A stretch of 33,584 bases of DNA from Bacteroidota bacterium (GTDB lineage Bacteria; Bacteroidota; Ignavibacteria; SZUA-365), in contig QKAF01000080.1 in NCBI GenBank assembly GCA_003246455.1, positions 1 to 33,584 of the forward strand, written 5' to 3'. Under the pieces are notes generated by a model. That model made no database searches and was not told where the DNA came from. It saw only the letters and a list, made by a program, of their open reading frames with translations. A program made the position numbers and the translations under genes. Positions 20,368 to 29,933 of this stretch are shown here, in pieces (positions within the stretch are counted from its first letter, which is position 1; every line of letters begins with the position of its first letter).

Positions 20368-21924
20368 CTACTGCAATTGCCTGACGATGTCGATCACGGT
20401 GCCGTCGACCCACTTGATCGCGGCGATGGGGTTGTCGCGGAATCGCGGCTTCTCGGGCGCACCGCCGCAGATGGACTCGATTTCGTCCTTCAGCGATTCG
20501 ATTGTCCGGAGGGGCAGGCCTGAATTTTTCGTGCGATCGATCAGGTCCTGCCGCAGGGGATTGATGGCGATGCCGCGTTCGGTGACGATGACGTCGATCA
20601 GCTCGCCGGGTCCGCAGAGCGTGGTGACCTCGTCGACGATGACCGGGATCCTGTCACGGAAACTCGGAATCGGGAGAATGGTGCATTTCGAGAACAGGCA
20701 GTTCTGCCATCCGCCGATGCCGTGGAGCAGCCGTCCGTCGCTGTGGGTCACGACGTTCGCGTTGAAATGGACGTCCACCTCCGTCGCCCCGAGCACCACG
20801 ACGTCAATCATCGATGCGATGTTGCCCTTGTTGTGATAGTTGTAGCTGACGAAGGGGTTGGTGTGGATGTGGTTCGGATTGTCGCGCATGGACCGCACGC
20901 CGGCGAGGTCGAAGGTCTGTCCGTCGAGAATGTAATCGGTGAGACCTTCGTTGAGCATGTCGACCAGGTACTGGGTGCTTCCCCCGCGAACGAACCGCGC
21001 CCGGATATTCTTCGCGCGCATCATGTCCCGCAGGAAAAGCGCGAAGGAAAGTGCGGTGCCACCCGCGCCCGCCTGGAAGGAGAATCCGTCGCGCAGAATT
21101 CCCGCGGCCTCGACGAAGCGTGCGGTAAGTTCCGCGATCAGCAGCCGGTCGGGGCTTTTCGTGATATTGGTCGTGCCGCTGACGATTTTCTCCGGATCGC
21201 CGACCTTGTCCACCACGACGACGGAATCGACATTGTTGCCCATGAGCTGCCAGGGAACGCATGGATACGGGACAAGGTTGTCCGTTACCACGATGACCCT
21301 GTCGGCATACTGAGAATCCGCCAGCGCGAAACCGAGCCCGCCGCAGGCGGAAGGACCGTTGACACCGTTGCAGTTCCCGAACGGATCCGAGGTCGGCGCG
21401 GCGATGACCGCGATATCGATGTGGACTTCGCCGTCCTGCACGGCCTGGTAGCGTCCGCCGTGCGAACGCAGCACACCGAGTCCGCGCATTTTTCCTGCGG
21501 AGGCGTAGTCGCCGAGAGGACCGTTCATCGATCCTTCGATGTGATGAATGACCCCGCTGTCGAGATGTCTGATCAGGGGTTCGTGACACGGAAAGGCGGC
21601 GGACGGGAACCACCGCAGATCCTTCACCCCGAGTTCCGCGGCGGCATCGAAAATCCGGTTGGCGACCAGGTCGCCGTTGCGAAAATGATGATGGGTGGAA
21701 ATGGTCATGCCGTCGCGCAGGCCCGCCTTCATCAGCGCGGTTCTGAGATCCGCGACCACCTTGTTGCCGTCCGCGGGATAATCGGCGCAGGTCGGAACCG
21801 GCGGCGCGGCCTTGCGTCCTTCCGGTCTGAATTTCCCCACTCCCTGGTAGGGAACGGCGGGAACACCGTTGATTTCCGTGACGACCTCGCGGCCCGCGGC
21901 ATTCAGGACAAGATTATCCTTCAT
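20368..21924 (-). CDS. citF: Citrate lyase alpha subunit (citrate CoA-transferase)
   Basis: A 518-aa subunit that moves the acyl-carrier thioester between acetate and citrate in the citrate lyase complex. Alignment by eye to E. coli CitF is good along the whole length: DGMTISTHHHFRNGDL, LRSHGGRYQAVQDGEVHIDIA, DPFGNCNG, RDNPNHIHTNPFVSYNYHNKG, HSDGRLLHGIGGWQN and the end DGTVIDIVRQLQ. Its start overlaps the upstream citDE gene by 11 bases, so the two are translated together. Citrate lyase ligase (CitC) and the prosthetic-group enzymes CitX/CitG are not in the window. The complex cleaves citrate to acetate and oxaloacetate. Confidence 0.95.
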   Translation of the reverse strand: MKDNLVLNAAGREVVTEINGVPAVPYQGVGKFRPEGRKAAPPVPTCADYPADGNKVVADLRTALMKAGLRDGMTISTHHHFRNGDLVANRIFDAAAELGVKDLRWFPSAAFPCHEPLIRHLDSGVIHHIEGSMNGPLGDYASAGKMRGLGVLRSHGGRYQAVQDGEVHIDIAVIAAPTSDPFGNCNGVNGPSACGGLGFALADSQYADRVIVVTDNLVPYPCVPWQLMGNNVDSVVVVDKVGDPEKIVSGTTNITKSPDRLLIAELTARFVEAAGILRDGFSFQAGAGGTALSFALFLRDMMRAKNIRARFVRGGSTQYLVDMLNEGLTDYILDGQTFDLAGVRSMRDNPNHIHTNPFVSYNYHNKGNIASMIDVVVLGATEVDVHFNANVVTHSDGRLLHGIGGWQNCLFSKCTILPIPSFRDRIPVIVDEVTTLCGPGELIDVIVTERGIAINPLRQDLIDRTKNSGLPLRTIESLKDEIESICGGAPEKPRFRDNPIAAIKWVDGTVIDIVRQLQ

Positions 21925-23137
21925 TTTCTTCCTCCTTCCATCCTTCGTTCAGAATACCCGTGCGCAGGGCGAGGTCGATCGTATGCTGTGCACGCTTGAC
22001 CACCGGCGGATCGATCATTTTCGATCCGAGCGAGACGACGCCGAGTCCGAGGCGTTCCGCTTCGTCGAAAGCGCGGACAATTTTCTTCGCTTTTTCGATC
22101 TCGCGCGCATCCGGCGCGAATCCGGTGTGCACGACGGGGATCTGCCGGGGATGGATGCAGCCCTTGCCGTCGAATCCCAGCGCCTTGGCTTCCCGGACAC
22201 TGGCAAGCAGGGCGTCCATGTCATTCACGTCTGAAAACACGGTGTCGATAGCCTGCACTCCGGCAGCCCGCGCCGCGTTGAGCACCGCGCCGCGCATCCA
22301 GAGGCTCTCATTCCCTTCCAGCGTGCGTTCCGCCCCGATATCGGCCGTGTAATCTTCCAGACCGATCGCAAGCGCAACGACGGACCCGTGGGCGCAGGCG
22401 ATTTCAAACGCCTGCACGGCGCCCCGGGCGCTTTCGATGATCGGCATCAGATGCACAGGCATCTCGATGCCGAACGACGCGCGCAGCGATTCGATATGGT
22501 CGACGACCTCCGTGACCTGCGCCGCGGATTCGACCTTCGGAATGAGAATCAGGTTCGGCTCCTGCGGGATGATCGCGTCGAGATCCGCAAGTCCGAGCGG
22601 CAGCTGGTTGATACGCACCATGCGCTCGGCACCGTAAAAATCCACCTCGCGCAGCGTGTTCCTGACCAGGAGACGCGCGGCGTCCTTTTCCGGCGGCGCG
22701 ACGGAATCCTCCAGGTCGAGGATCACGCCGTCGGGCTGATGAATTCCGGCATTGATCGCGAGCTTCGGATCGTTCCCCGGCAGGTAGAGCCGCGAGCGGC
22801 GGAAGCGGTCGCGCGTCGTGGCACGGCGGAGTCCCTCGCGATACGGCAGCAGGAAGCTGCGTGTCTCGTCGGGACGCAGACGCTTGACCGCGGTTTCGAT
22901 ACGCGCGGCAATGGTGTACGGCAAGGCGCCGCTGTCTTCGATCACTACTTCGGCGTTCTGAATTTCAAATTTGTCGAGGACCTCGGCCGCGAGCGCCCGG
23001 ATCGATGCACCGTAGAGCGCATCGACCTTGCTCCGCAGCTGCAGGTCGATTCCGCCGGACTCGCGCAGCGCGATGGCGACCCGGCAATCGGAGCGCACGT
23101 TCTTGCCGCTGCGGCCGGCTTCAGCTTTCATGTTCAT
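21914..23137 (-). CDS. citE: Citrate lyase gamma-beta fusion (CitD acyl carrier + CitE lyase)
   Basis: A 407-aa protein, about 110 residues longer than normal CitE. Residues 1-90 match the acyl carrier subunit CitD: ESGGIDLQLRSKVDALYG and VVIEDSGALPYTIAARIETAV align with DIDLQINSSVEKQFG and VDDKGALDCILRARLEAL of E. coli CitD, and S16 (VRSDCRV) is in the place of the serine that carries the prosthetic group. Residues about 112-400 are CitE: RRSRLYLPGN, VILDLEDSVAPPEKD, IGLEDYTADI, DTVFSDVND and FDGKGCIHPRQI. The fusion fixes the gamma:beta ratio and tethers the carrier to the lyase. It overlaps citF by 11 bases. An alternative start two codons downstream (M3) exists. Confidence 0.93.
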   Translation of the reverse strand: MNMKAEAGRSGKNVRSDCRVAIALRESGGIDLQLRSKVDALYGASIRALAAEVLDKFEIQNAEVVIEDSGALPYTIAARIETAVKRLRPDETRSFLLPYREGLRRATTRDRFRRSRLYLPGNDPKLAINAGIHQPDGVILDLEDSVAPPEKDAARLLVRNTLREVDFYGAERMVRINQLPLGLADLDAIIPQEPNLILIPKVESAAQVTEVVDHIESLRASFGIEMPVHLMPIIESARGAVQAFEIACAHGSVVALAIGLEDYTADIGAERTLEGNESLWMRGAVLNAARAAGVQAIDTVFSDVNDMDALLASVREAKALGFDGKGCIHPRQIPVVHTGFAPDAREIEKAKKIVRAFDEAERLGLGVVSLGSKMIDPPVVKRAQHTIDLALRTGILNEGWKEEENEG

Positions 23138-23173
23138 GGGAAACCCGTATTCGGTGACGGAGATTCTTGTCTG

Positions 23174-23207
23174 CCGCCGCTCCCCTGGCGGCGGTCCATC
23201 AAATATA
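23174..23207 (-). promoter_or_regulatory. Candidate -7 box and leader hairpin for citDE
   Basis: TATATTTG on the minus strand (23207-23200) is an exact match to TAnnTTTG. A start near 23193 would place the perfect 7-bp hairpin CCGCCGC (23174-23180) / GCGGCGG (23188-23194) at the very 5' end of a leader of about 55 nt, where it could stabilise the mRNA. No good TTTG box is seen at the usual distance. Confidence 0.4.
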
Positions 23208-23302
23208 GCAAGACCGCGCGAATTCTACCGGCGTATGAAACTTTTGCCGGCAGCGTCTTTGTTTAGATCGGGTAGCTCATCAACCCATTTGCAGACAGCA
23301 TC

Positions 23303-23731
23303 ATGAACCACCCGGGCGAAACTCTGACTTTCAGCGCCATCGCACAGGCCGATATAGAAACCTTCGAGAAGCAGAAGGAGAAAATCGTCACCGCCGTCAC
23401 CGATCATCTCTTTCGCTGCACGGCGCTGTCCGATGCGCTCTCGGATCCCGAGCACGCGCGCATCGCACGCGAATGCGTAAAGATCTTCACGGAGAATTTC
23501 CTGACGACCGTGAAATACCAGCTTCCGGAAGCGCTGCTGGATTATGTCGCGTGGCTGCGCGGATTTCTCGCCAGCAGGAGTTTCCCTCCCTCGTTCATTC
23601 CGCACCTGATCGCCGGCATGCGCAACGCCGTGCATGCGTTTCTGGAGGAGGGACGCAGCGATGACATTTGCGCAGCGCTTCGCACTCTGCGCCTCGGCGA
23701 ACTGCAGCGCATTTCGGAGGTGCGCGCATGA
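23303..23731 (+). CDS. Unknown helical protein, operon partner of a B12-binding protein
   Basis: A 142-aa soluble protein without signal peptide or membrane segment. The sequence is almost all helical, with DIETFEKQKEKIVTAVTDHLFR near the start and an aromatic helix pair (LDYVAWLRGFLASRSFPPSFIPHLIAGMRNAV split over residues about 78-110) near the end. I do not recognise it with confidence; the pattern resembles sensory helical domains such as RsbR-type N-terminal modules. Its stop shares four bases (ATGA) with the start of the cobalamin-binding gene, so the two products are probably made together and may interact. The TTTG at about 23256 may belong to its promoter but no good -7 partner is clear. 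Confidence 0.78.
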   Translation: MNHPGETLTFSAIAQADIETFEKQKEKIVTAVTDHLFRCTALSDALSDPEHARIARECVKIFTENFLTTVKYQLPEALLDYVAWLRGFLASRSFPPSFIPHLIAGMRNAVHAFLEEGRSDDICAALRTLRLGELQRISEVRA

Positions 23732-24360
23732 TCATCCAGGAACAGCTGCGTCTGTTTATCGCGGCCCTGCGCGAGGGCGATCGGAGACGAAGTTTCGCGC
23801 TCGTACGGGAATGGGAGCAGAACGGACTGCCGGACGACCTCCTCTACAACGAGATCCTCATCCCCGCGCTCGTGCGGTTCGGCGACAACTGGGAAAGCAA
23901 CGATCAGGGTGTCGTCGAGGAACATGTCGCCTCACAGATCGTCCGACATATCCTCGCCTACAAGGCGGTGACCATGGAGTCGGACGTGTCTCCCGGGAAA
24001 ACCGCCATGGTCGGCTGCGTACCCGACGAACACCACGATCTCGCGTCGCTGTTCATGGCCAACGCCCTCGAGGACGCGGGCTGGCGCGTGGTGCATTACG
24101 GCTCCTCCGCCCCGGTCCGGGACATCGTTCAAGCCGTCGGGCGCTATCGGCCGGACCTCCTCTGCCTCACGATGAAATCCCTCGGCTGCCTCGATGCCAC
24201 GCTCAAACTCCTCGAACAGCTCCGCGCGACGTACCCCGAACTGAAAATCATGGTCGGGGGGATCTCCCAGCCATCGATGCGCGCGATCCTCGCCCCGCAT
24301 GTCGACGTCTTCGCCGACTCGCTCACGCACGGCGTCGCTGCTGCCGGAGAGTTGGCGTAA
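23728..24360 (+). CDS. Stand-alone cobalamin-binding protein of CarH/AerR type
   Basis: A 210-aa protein built like the sensory half of CarH. Residues 1-80 form the helical cap (B12-binding_2): W55-x9-E65-H66 (FGDNWESNDQ then EEHVAS) matches the Wx9EH motif that covers adenosylcobalamin in light-sensing CarH, including V62 at the place of Thermus V138. Residues about 90-210 form the Rossmann B12-binding domain: VPDEHHDLA (100-106) gives the lower-ligand histidine (H102 or H103), but the usual glycine after DxHxxG/ExHxxG is A106, and GGISQP is the later loop. There is no MerR or other DNA-binding domain. It starts at ATG 23728 inside the previous gene's stop. Light or redox sensing by a two-protein system is an inference. 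Confidence 0.87.
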   Translation: MIIQEQLRLFIAALREGDRRRSFALVREWEQNGLPDDLLYNEILIPALVRFGDNWESNDQGVVEEHVASQIVRHILAYKAVTMESDVSPGKTAMVGCVPDEHHDLASLFMANALEDAGWRVVHYGSSAPVRDIVQAVGRYRPDLLCLTMKSLGCLDATLKLLEQLRATYPELKIMVGGISQPSMRAILAPHVDVFADSLTHGVAAAGELA

Positions 24361-24384: not shown

Positions 24385-24412
24385 GCAGGGGCGCAGCATG
24401 CTGCACCCCTGC
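24385..24412. repeat. Dispersed palindromic repeat, copy A
   Basis: A 28-bp near-perfect palindrome, GCAGGGGCGCAGCA then TGCTGCACCCCTGC, with one mismatched pair (C/A). It sits between the convergent B12 gene and isocitrate-dehydrogenase-like gene. Copy B at 29904-29933 has the same sequence apart from the mismatch and one base more at each end. Confidence 0.8.
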
Positions 24413-24440
24413 ACTTTGTTTATACCGTGGGCGTGATTCG

Positions 24441-25622
24441 CTACAGCTTCGCGATGATCGCGTCCGTGATCTCTTGCGTGGTGGCGGCGCCATGGGAGAA
24501 CACGTCGGGACCGCCCGCCAACTTCATCATGTCGTACGACCGGACCTTCCCTTCATCGATCACTGCGGCGACGGCCGTGCGGATGCGATCCGATTTTTCA
24601 TTCTCGCCGATATGATCGAGCATCATGCAAGCGCTGAGCACCATCGCGATGGGATTCACGATGGAGGGATCGAGTTTTTCGTACTTGGGCGCCGATCCGT
24701 GCGTGGGTTCGAACACCGCGACCTCGGGACCGATGTTGGCGCTGCACGCGAAGCCAAGTCCGCCGACGAGTCCGGCGAAGCCGTCGGAAACAATATCGCC
24801 GAACATGTTGCCCGCGACGATCACTCCGTAGTCTTCCGGATTCTTCGTCAGCCACATCATCTGCGCGTCGATGTTGGTCGACCAGAGCTGGATGTGCGGG
24901 AAGCGCTTCGCCGCTTCGGCAGCTTCGGCTTCCATCATGCCCGACGTCTCACGGATGACGTTCGGTTTCTCGCAGACGGTAACGGACTTGTAGCCGTACT
25001 TGTCCGCGTACTCGAAGGCCGCGTTCACGATGCGTCGGCAGTATTTCCGCGTAAAAATGCGCGTCGACACGGCCAGATCCTCGCCCGGCACGTCGTGGAA
25101 GGCCTTGAAGCGCGGATGCGAATCCAGCGCCTCGCGCACGTTCGCAGGCGGATCGGTCCACTCGACGCCCGAGTACAGTCCTTCCGTATTCTGACGGAAA
25201 ATCACAACGTCCACACGGGGTTCTTCGAAGCCGCCGTCCGCGGATTTCCGGATGAAGTTCAGCGGATTGCCGGGGAAGGAGAGACAGGGCCGGATGCAGA
25301 TGTCGAGATCGAAATGCTGACGCATGGTGACGATCGGGCTGTAGTAGACAAACCCCTTGTCGCTGAGCGCGGGATCGAGCTCGGCGGCAGCCTTGTTCTT
25401 GGGTTTCGAGGTGATGGCGCCGAACAGGCCGACCTTGTGCTCGGCCAGCAGATCGACGGTGCGCTGCGGCAGGGGATTCCCCTCGCTGCACCAGAAATCC
25501 CAGCCGATGTCGCCGTTGACATATTCCGCCTCGAAACCGGCGGCGTCCAGTACACGAATGGCCTCGGGGAGAACGACTTTTCCGATGCCGTCCCCTGGCA
25601 TCGCCACGATGGTGCGTTTCAT
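24441..25622 (-). CDS. Isocitrate/isopropylmalate dehydrogenase family, probably NADP isocitrate dehydrogenase-like
   Basis: A 393-aa decarboxylating dehydrogenase. GDGIG is at 10-14; MRQHFDLDICIRP and VVIFRQNTEGLYSGVEW match the isocitrate dehydrogenase core better than LeuB. HGSAPKY, before NPIAMVLSACMMLDHIG, carries the Lys-Tyr pair that contacts the 2'-phosphate of NADP in E. coli Icd. At the substrate loop the E. coli S113-x-N115-x3-R119 becomes S95-P-I97-V-T-M-R101, so the asparagine is isoleucine, which could mean altered substrate choice. GAGGAAGAGAG precedes the ATG. The gene is near the citrate lyase genes but separated from them by the B12 operon. Tartrate- or homoisocitrate-type activity cannot be excluded. 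Confidence 0.78.
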   Translation of the reverse strand: MKRTIVAMPGDGIGKVVLPEAIRVLDAAGFEAEYVNGDIGWDFWCSEGNPLPQRTVDLLAEHKVGLFGAITSKPKNKAAAELDPALSDKGFVYYSPIVTMRQHFDLDICIRPCLSFPGNPLNFIRKSADGGFEEPRVDVVIFRQNTEGLYSGVEWTDPPANVREALDSHPRFKAFHDVPGEDLAVSTRIFTRKYCRRIVNAAFEYADKYGYKSVTVCEKPNVIRETSGMMEAEAAEAAKRFPHIQLWSTNIDAQMMWLTKNPEDYGVIVAGNMFGDIVSDGFAGLVGGLGFACSANIGPEVAVFEPTHGSAPKYEKLDPSIVNPIAMVLSACMMLDHIGENEKSDRIRTAVAAVIDEGKVRSYDMMKLAGGPDVFSHGAATTQEITDAIIAKL

Positions 25623-27476: not shown

Positions 27477-28568
27477 GGGATTGATGGCTGATGGCTGATG
27501 GCTGATGGCTGATGGCTGATGGCTGATGGCTGATGGCTGATGGCTGATGGCTGATGGCTCCTTCCCCTTCCGGTAGCCGTGCGCATCGAGCCAGGATTCT
27601 ATCTCCGCGCGTGCGTCGCGGCTTCCGACATAGGGAAGAACAAAACAGGCACCCGGCGGCGGGAGCTGATCAGGCGGAAGCACGGGAGCACCGTCGATGC
27701 GCTGTCCGATCTTCGCCGGATCGATATCTACCCACCCTGCGACACGAATGCCCTCGGCCTGAAGCTTCCGAACACGCTGACGGGTGATGCGGCCGGCGCC
27801 CCAGAGATGCACGGCGGGATGAAACGGATTATTCCGGCTGAGCCAGCGCGCGAGATACCTTGCCTTGACGGCGTAGAACGCATCCACGGAATAGCGTTCA
27901 TCGGTGCGCGACAGGCGCTGAGGGGGATCATTCCACTGCAGCACCGGAACCGGCATCCGCGCCATGCGCACGCCCGCGTCCATCCACCGCAGCCAGAGTT
28001 CATAGTCCTCGGGGAAGTCTCCCTGGCGATACCCGCCGTGCGATTCGACGAGTTCCCGCCGGAACATGACAGAAGGATGTGCGAACGGCGATTCCACGAA
28101 CCGTGCGAGGGAGATCTCCTCCGCAGTCCTGAGGTCGTTGAGCCAGTCGACGTGCAGCGCGTAGCCGCGCGCGTGCCGGCGATCGCCGCCGAAAACGACC
28201 TGTCCGCCGACGAGCCCGATATCATCGTGGCCGGCGAGATAGTCGCGCTGGGAGGGAAGACGACCCGGCAGGCTCACGTCGTCGGCATCCATGCGGGCGA
28301 TCAGATCGCCCCGGGCGAAGGTGATACCCGCGTTCAGCGCCGCGACGATCCCGCCGTGCGGAATACGCAGCACCCGCAGCCACGAAAACGACTCCGCGAG
28401 GGTATCGAGCAGCTCCCCGCTTCCGTCGGTCGAACCGTCGTCGACCGCGATCACCTCCGTACCCGCGGTCCCGGAAAGCGCGAGTACATCCGCCTCGAGA
28501 CTCTCCACCGCCGCACGGAGCGTTCCGCACGCGTTATGGACGGGAAGGATGACGGAGACGGCGGGCAT
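26523..28568 (-). CDS. Repeat-joined ORF: family-2 glycosyltransferase + serine/threonine dehydratase
   Basis: One uninterrupted 681-codon frame that joins two unrelated enzymes. Residues 1-336 are a GT2 glycosyltransferase: ILPVHNACGTL, V-D43-D44-GSTDGS and the metal-binding D94-A-D96-D97, EDYELWLRW, then a C-terminal region LWGAGRITRQRVRKL and ACFVLPYVGSRDARAE that normally precedes the end of such proteins. Residues 338-362 are PSAISHQ repeated, translated from 11 copies of a 7-bp repeat. From M365 the serine/threonine dehydratase follows (listed separately at 26523-27476). The repeat on this strand has no stop in any frame, so the GT2 stop seems to have been lost. Whether a fused protein is made, or two proteins by re-initiation, is open. 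Confidence 0.75.
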   Translation of the reverse strand: MPAVSVILPVHNACGTLRAAVESLEADVLALSGTAGTEVIAVDDGSTDGSGELLDTLAESFSWLRVLRIPHGGIVAALNAGITFARGDLIARMDADDVSLPGRLPSQRDYLAGHDDIGLVGGQVVFGGDRRHARGYALHVDWLNDLRTAEEISLARFVESPFAHPSVMFRRELVESHGGYRQGDFPEDYELWLRWMDAGVRMARMPVPVLQWNDPPQRLSRTDERYSVDAFYAVKARYLARWLSRNNPFHPAVHLWGAGRITRQRVRKLQAEGIRVAGWVDIDPAKIGQRIDGAPVLPPDQLPPPGACFVLPYVGSRDARAEIESWLDAHGYRKGKEPSAISHQPSAISHQPSAISHQPSAINPMPWFPTLPEIESTAERIAPWVHRTPVLTSSAIDAIAGCTLFFKCENFQKVGAFKFRGASNAVLCLTPEEAACGVATHSSGNHAQALALAARLRGIPAHIVMPSNAPAIKKAAVAGYGARIVECEPTLDARESTLDAVVRETGAAFVHPYNDQRVITGQASAARELIEEVTELDILMTPVGGGGLLSGSAMAAHYLSPGTTVIAAEPEGADDARRSFLAGRIIPSENPRTIADGLLTSLGDRTFAIIREHVRDIVTVPDDAIIRAMRLVWERMKIIIEPSAAVPLAAILEQRIASDGKRIGIILSGGNLDLDRLPWQT
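27483..27559. repeat. Tandem repeat, 11 perfect copies of GATGGCT
   Basis: 77 bp made of 11 identical 7-bp units. On the plus strand each frame meets TGA; on the minus strand (AGCCATC) every frame is open and encodes SHQPSAI in rotation. It lies exactly between the GT2 and dehydratase domains of the minus-strand ORF. As 7 is not a multiple of 3, gain or loss of one unit would change the downstream frame. Confidence 0.97.
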
Positions 28569-29903: not shown

Positions 29904-29933
29904 TGCAGGGGCGCAGCATGCTGCGCCCCTGCA
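29904..29933. repeat. Dispersed palindromic repeat, copy B
   Basis: A perfect 30-bp palindrome: TGCAGGGGCGCAGCA followed by TGCTGCGCCCCTGCA. Copy A at 24385-24412 matches it with one change. It lies in the 118-bp spacer between the thioesterase and DUF3857 genes. No T-run follows on either strand. Confidence 0.85.

Follow-up and report, generated by a model that had tools for sequence, protein, structure and literature searches.

Photocobilins couple two chromophores in one polypeptide chain, and the role of the free-standing members is reported to be unclear. An in trans effect of free-standing photocobilins on a diguanylate cyclase has been demonstrated (PMC10979010). In the related BBAG-2 arrangement of Myxococcales, genes for free-standing globins cluster with a distinct gene for a B12-binding protein (Rockwell et al. 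2023, PMC10151467); BBAG-2 genomes encode a heme oxygenase, and the BBAG-2 proteins that were tested bind biliverdin (PMC10151467). For the cobalamin part, the motifs GxxW, EH, GxxH and GxxxP constitute the published SignatureFinder signature of light-responsive cobalamin domains (PMC11796333). Here we compare with these systems a two-gene locus from a Bacteroidota bacterium, located in the 33,584-nucleotide stretch of DNA that we refer to as the window.

Results

A co-inherited gene pair

The locus comprises two genes:

23303–23731, forward strand: gene 1, encoding P1 (142 aa), by predicted structure and HMM matches a free-standing bilin-type (phycobiliprotein/photoglobin-like) globin
23728–24360, forward strand: gene 2, encoding P2 (210 aa), by Pfam and PDB sequence matches a CarH-like two-domain cobalamin-binding protein with a helical cap and a Rossmann domain

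Both open reading frames lie where a prior sequence-only reading of the window had placed them, and they share the 4-base ATGA overlap that it described. Whole-genome searches recover gene 1 from 9 of the 12 genomes of the same GTDB family, the window's genome included, and from none of roughly 380 other genomes of the class. Close P2 orthologues are confined to the same nine genomes, and P1 and P2 are jointly missing from the remaining three family genomes searched; the family genomes are mostly draft assemblies, with completeness of 87–100%. The genes stand side by side in all nine, always in one order, joined by ATGA in eight and by TAATG in one, and are read as two ORFs in different frames rather than as one polypeptide. 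The co-occurrence check proposed by the sequence-only reading thus finds the genes together in 9/9 genomes of the family. Comparison of the window's genome (G000) with its nearest relative (G003) gives dN/dS values of about 0.16 for gene 1 and about 0.12 for gene 2, indicative of purifying selection on both. We conclude that the pair is not a chance association, because it occurs as nine orthologous pairs in the family, is under purifying selection, and keeps W55, E56, E65, H66, E101 and H103 of P2 invariant.

Elsewhere in the phylum, weak P1 matches in two genomes (G491 and G398) have no adjoining B12 gene and were judged to have arisen by chance. A search of plasmids with P1 gives no match. 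In a contig search, one locus (L016) is a true relative and another (L017) a false match to an acyl-CoA dehydrogenase-like ORF.

P1 has the predicted fold of a bilin-type globin

P1 belongs to no family in Pfam, NCBIfam or PHROGs, and one orthologue gives a non-significant match to PF00502 (Phycobilisome, E 0.12). Run against PDB sequences, the P1 profile returns chance hits only. Since neither the family libraries nor the PDB profile search gave anything significant, the assignment of P1 rests mainly on its predicted fold. The AlphaFold2 model, built from the nine-sequence alignment, is all-helical and confident (pLDDT 91.2, pTM 0.86), and the best 50 PDB matches of this model in Foldseek are almost all phycobiliproteins and fluorescent proteins derived from them (E about 0.003–0.03). 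Structural alignment with VIA-align gives a Z of 15.6 to smURFP (7uqa; 2.6 Å over 129 aa), about 14.5 to allophycocyanins, 14.4 to the globin of the SasPcob photocobilin (8j2x; 2.1 Å over 119 aa) and 13.2 to the stressosome globin 3zta (2.3 Å over 113 aa); helical models without a clear relative can reach Z values of 13–14, but the P1 list consists consistently of bilin-type globins aligned over almost the whole chain. Profile searches point the same way. Among 977 ORFs ranked by the P1 HMM, photocobilin globins come next after P1's own family and one other globin, an HMM of photocobilin globins places all nine P1 proteins above unrelated ORFs, and profile–profile comparison of P1 with photocobilin globins returns a probability of 93%. 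On its model, then, P1 looks like a bilin-type globin, and the partner that the sequence-only reading had set down as an unrecognised helical protein is in fact recognisable.

The bilin pocket of P1 and the supply of chromophores

The globins of SasPcob and AbPcob contact the bilin through a set of residues that includes a pocket Trp (PMC10979010), with which P1 was aligned without gaps, taking this Trp as the reference. Two elements of P1 anchor the comparison:

23471–23476, forward strand: P1 Glu57-Cys58; the Glu is invariant, and the next position (Cys, Ser or Thr) probably corresponds to Asp270 of SasPcob, which anchors biliverdin (ungapped table)
23552–23554, forward strand: P1 Trp84, at the position of the bilin-contacting Trp (SasPcob Trp296, AbPcob Trp289); invariant in nine orthologues (ungapped pocket table)

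In this ungapped comparison Trp84, Leu89 and Arg92 of P1 occupy the positions of AbPcob Trp289, Leu294 and Arg297, and Phe94 and Phe98 those of Val299 and Val303. The position 26 residues before the Trp, where SasPcob has Asp270 and AbPcob has His (PMC10979010), is Cys in three, Ser in five and Thr in one of the nine orthologues; AbPcob, with His at this anchor position, binds biliverdin weakly (PMC10979010). One residue further upstream P1 has an invariant Glu, as do most photocobilins. The biliverdin-anchoring Asp is thus probably missing from P1, a loss that is likely rather than certain because gapped profile alignments place Glu57, not Cys58, on the anchor position.

Searches for bilin synthesis and for phytochromes, in which control genomes did give matches, find heme oxygenase (PF01126) in none of 16 genomes of the order, and neither PF14518 nor bilin reductase (PF05996) nor phytochrome (PF00360) in the 12 family genomes; these absences hold for the families searched and the completeness of the genomes, and a heme oxygenase of an unrecognised type may be present. 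Cobalamin adenosyltransferase (PF01923), on the other hand, is encoded in 12/12 family genomes, from which it follows that adenosylcobalamin (AdoCbl) can be made and biliverdin apparently cannot. It is probable, judged from these sequence comparisons, that P1 no longer depends on biliverdin.

P2 is a CarH-like B12 module with departures in its motifs

P2 matches two Pfam domains above cut-off, B12-binding_2 (residues 10–78) and B12-binding (93–194), and nothing else, bearing out the earlier statement that it has no DNA-binding domain. Compared by sequence with solved structures, P2 matches best the B12 module of Chloracidobacterium CtMerR (8jbs) and the photocobilins 8j2w and 8j2x, with CarH next. 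The NCBIfam CarH model aligns with the B12 part of P2 only, scoring 45 bits where the cut-off is 400, and the N-terminal MerR DNA-binding domain of that family is absent. Three sequence elements define the candidate cobalamin site:

23881–23925, forward strand: cap motif G52xxW55 ... E65-H66, which forms the adenosyl-group pocket in CarH and photocobilins; invariant in nine orthologues
24028–24036, forward strand: E101-x-H103, with His103 the predicted lower cobalt ligand; E101 and H103 invariant
24169–24177, forward strand: T148-M149-K150, in place of the cobalamin motif SxL; no family member varies at Lys150

We find that the residues on which the sequence-only reading was built, namely W55-x9-E65-H66, V62, Glu56 and the histidines at 102 and 103, are all present in P2, and that the orthologues sharpen their interpretation. 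Eleven positions (G52, W55, E56, E65, H66, E101, H103, G125, P129, G177 and G178) are invariant in the nine P2 proteins. Of the two histidines proposed as ligand, His103 is the candidate, because His102 is Gln in 4/9 orthologues. The Val at position 62, correctly read in the window's protein, is not a rule of the family, in which Val occurs in two and Ile in seven of the nine orthologues. The Ala that replaces Gly of the B12 motif (position 106) is likewise real and is only a mild departure, since two orthologues have Gly or Pro there and some photocobilins have Pro. Glu56, at the position of CarH His132, is invariant, and the photocobilins with which it was aligned also lack His at this position.

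P2 satisfies GxxW, EH and GxxxP of the SignatureFinder set through the invariant G52-W55, E65-H66 and G125-P129, and the GxxW, EH, GxxxP and ExH motifs that are invariant in P2 occur in modules that are experimentally light-responsive (PMC11796333, PMC10979010). Two further departures had escaped the sequence-only reading: GxxH is not matched, with Asp, Glu or Asn in place of Gly in 9/9 orthologues, and the SxL motif is T148-M149-K150 (V-V-K in G004), with a Lys150 found in no other B12 module aligned. Both departures may alter the binding of cobalamin by P2. Neither the Trp nor the Glu-His pair occurs in a haloarchaeal corrinoid protein that was included in the alignment. In a tree of B12 modules P2 forms one clade, whose placement among CarH, photocobilin and histidine-kinase-operon modules is without resolution. 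Superposition of the whole P2 model is poor for every two-domain B12 protein, with an rmsd of about 11 Å that reflects domain orientation, and structure alone therefore does not single out the photoreceptors. The description of P2 as an orphan CarH-like cobalamin photosensor module fits well with motifs common to CarH and photocobilin modules.

Genomic context

The pair lies between metabolic genes, with no output gene adjacent to it:

20368–23137, reverse strand: citrate lyase genes citF (20368–21924) and a citD-citE fusion (21914–23137), divergent neighbours (Pfam CitF, HpcH_HpaI, ACP)
23138–23302, no strand: 165-bp divergent spacer from citDE to P1, well conserved
23200–23207, reverse strand: TATATTTG (TANNTTTG) box, the only one in the spacer, facing citDE
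24441–25622, reverse strand: isocitrate/isopropylmalate dehydrogenase family gene, convergent neighbour (Pfam Iso_dh)

citDE/citF diverge from the pair in 8/9 genomes, and the convergent isocitrate dehydrogenase follows it in 7/9. The spacer aligns nearly end to end between G000 and G003, genomes whose synonymous sites differ at 51–62%, and conservation at this level of divergence suggests regulatory sequence; a sigma-70 scan found no promoter. Conserved synteny is by itself weak evidence that the pair acts on citrate lyase.

Two other features of the window were recorded. A palindrome around GGGCGCAGCATGCTGC lies in intergenic DNA at 24385–24415 and 29905–29930, has about 21 sites in the window's draft genome compared with none for a reversed control, and is a REP-like or terminator-like repeat, whose copy 3′ of P2 lies between convergent genes and folds strongly into a hairpin (z −3.5). 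At 27482–27559 lies a perfect tandem array, (TGATGGC) × 11, through which a frame for a glycosyltransferase 2 runs on into one for a PALP-family (threonine dehydratase-like) protein, giving a single 681-aa ORF. The unit being 7 bases long, the number of copies sets the reading frame beyond the array, and the ORF is probably two genes.

Other candidate cobalamin photosensors in the family

Two sister genomes of the same genus contain an operon of three separate, overlapping genes (L085:1272-3572 on G001:C7, minus strand; L086:456-2723 on G002:C369), which encodes a CarH-type B12 module, a PAS histidine kinase and a bilin-type globin of 163–168 aa. Like the P1–P2 locus it has separate genes for the B12 module and the globin in one operon; it differs in its histidine kinase output and in the Asn at the anchor position of its globin, to which the window's genome has no match. 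This operon resembles a split photocobilin with an obvious output attached, and it may tell more than the window's own pair. Outside the window, the same genome also encodes a MerR-type CarH-like regulator with the W, EH and GxxH motifs (G000:C106:7008-7463; L005, L029), so P2 is not the organism's only candidate cobalamin photosensor.

Discussion

A model for the gene pair

We propose, with moderate confidence, that P2 is an AdoCbl-binding switch driven by light or by the supply of AdoCbl, that P1 docks on P2, and that the complex acts on a third protein. P1 and P2 would then together make up a photocobilin-type sensor that is split into two subunits. In P2, His103 would hold AdoCbl base-off, Trp55 and Glu65-His66 would lie over the adenosyl group, and either light, by breaking the Co–C bond, or the availability of AdoCbl would change the state of the protein. 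P1 would dock on P2 in the way that the globin of photocobilins docks on its fused B12 module. Photocobilins of Streptomyces plasmids have a C-terminal globin, several of them next to PP2C phosphatase and STAS genes, and the photocobilin-like proteins of Skermanella, Azospirillum and Ilyobacter plasmids have an N-terminal one; the existence of fused homologues in both domain orders implies that the two parts interact. Because neither subunit has a DNA-binding or catalytic domain, the complex would pass the change to its putative partner by protein–protein contact. The earlier suggestion of a split light or B12 sensor with the partner as co-sensor fits well with this model, P1 having the predicted fold of the globin that photocobilins fuse to a B12 domain. 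That the signal goes to citrate lyase, with a pigment-less globin as transducer of a bilin-free split photocobilin that controls the enzyme by contact or via the shared intergenic region, we regard as distinctly unlikely.

Two plasmid loci are recorded here as observations in their own right. A 154-aa photoglobin-like ORF without a B12 domain lies between PP2C phosphatase and STAS genes on a plasmid of Streptomyces sp. NBC_01558 (L084:2492-2956); it appears internally deleted, its relatives having a full photocobilin there. On an Ilyobacter polytropus plasmid (L082:2279-4322) the gene for a 373-aa photocobilin-like protein with an N-terminal globin overlaps a GGDEF gene, a possible B12–globin sensor with a separate diguanylate cyclase.

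Alternative readings

The same P1–P2 complex might still contain a bilin, scavenged as biliverdin or supplied by an unrecognised heme oxygenase, and act as a two-chromophore red/green sensor like SasPcob and BBAG-2. The invariant pocket residues Trp84, Leu89 and Arg92, the alignment of the invariant Glu57 with the anchor when gaps are allowed, and the capacity of heme oxygenases to diverge strongly (PMC10151467) all favor such a sensor, but Ser/Thr/Cys at the ungapped anchor position, the weak binding of biliverdin by AbPcob with its His anchor (PMC10979010), and the missing PF01126 (16 genomes) and PF14518, PF05996 and PF00360 (12 genomes) make it fairly unlikely in our view. Photochemistry might also have no physiological part, with P2 signaling ligand occupancy and the pair sensing the level of AdoCbl or the redox state. 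This would accord with the differences at GxxH and SxL between P2 and the pocket of CarH and SignatureFinder, with the metabolic nature of the conserved neighbours, citrate lyase and isocitrate dehydrogenase, and with the lack of a phytochrome match in the family; we consider it unlikely, since the adenosyl-holding Trp55 and Glu65-His66 are invariant and a protein that binds AdoCbl in this way is likely light-responsive.

It is very unlikely that P2 binds no cobalamin, or binds heme as does the SCHIC domain of AppA, and that the pair is a protein-interaction module: T-M-K at SxL, with its invariant Lys150, and the unmatched GxxH could be read in this way, but P2, which is under strong purifying selection, keeps His103, Trp55, Glu65-His66 and the GG motif without variation, and SCHIC, by comparison, has lost the Trp cap (PMC9144470). 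One outcome that the sequence-only reading had named as decisive against itself, a methyltransferase corrinoid protein with a methyltransferase nearby, was looked for and not found. P2 does give weak matches to the MtgC, MtbC and MtaC models, and its Rossmann domain superposes on methyltransferase corrinoid proteins; these NCBIfam scores are all far under their cut-offs, however, no methyltransferase is recognised next to the pair in the window, nor in the relatives among the neighbouring ORFs that were listed, and the Trp and Glu-His that are invariant in P2 are absent from the corrinoid protein compared, so that P2 as the corrinoid protein of a methyltransferase system, with P1 as helper, is highly improbable.

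A natural two-subunit form without recognisable bilin synthesis makes it possible to ask what the globin does for the B12 switch without a pigment, and which protein the globin addresses. It also adds a Bacteroidetes lineage to the Myxococcales as bearers of globin and B12 gene pairs, and it offers small parts that can be used separately in green-light tools.

Comparison with known systems

P1 resembles RsbR-type stressosome globins (3zta) in its predicted fold, and differs from them in having neither a STAS domain nor a Pfam match and in being paired with a B12 module. With AerR/PpaA of Rhodobacter, P2 shares a B12 module that lacks a DNA-binding domain and works, presumably also in P2, by binding a partner protein, which for AerR is a DNA-binding protein and not a globin; the AerR-like Sulfitobacter sequence that we compared lacks the Glu-His pair and GxxxP. 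CarH of Thermus thermophilus and class II LitR have the Trp, Glu-His and ligand His at the same spacing as P2, whereas P2 lacks their DNA-binding domain, has Glu56 in place of His132, and scores far under the CarH family cut-off.

The photocobilins/photoglobins (SasPcob, AbDPcob; Zhang et al. 2024, PMC10979010) combine, like the pair, a CarH-type B12 module with a bilin-type globin and share the W/EH/ExH motifs, the P1 fold lying at 2.1 Å from a photocobilin globin; here the two parts are separate proteins, Ser/Thr/Cys probably replaces Asp270, and P2 departs at GxxH and SxL. BBAG-2 clusters, compared by their published description, also place the gene for a free-standing bilin-type globin beside that for a separate B12-binding protein, as in 9/9 genomes here, and differ in that no heme oxygenase or bilin reductase family is matched in our genomes and the anchor Asp is probably replaced. 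The split sensor suggested by the sequence-only reading is accordingly not new in kind, separate globin and B12-protein gene pairs (BBAG-2) and fused photoglobins/photocobilins having already been published (PMC10151467, PMC10979010); the pair is an instance of such an arrangement from a further lineage, in which bilin synthesis is not recognisable.
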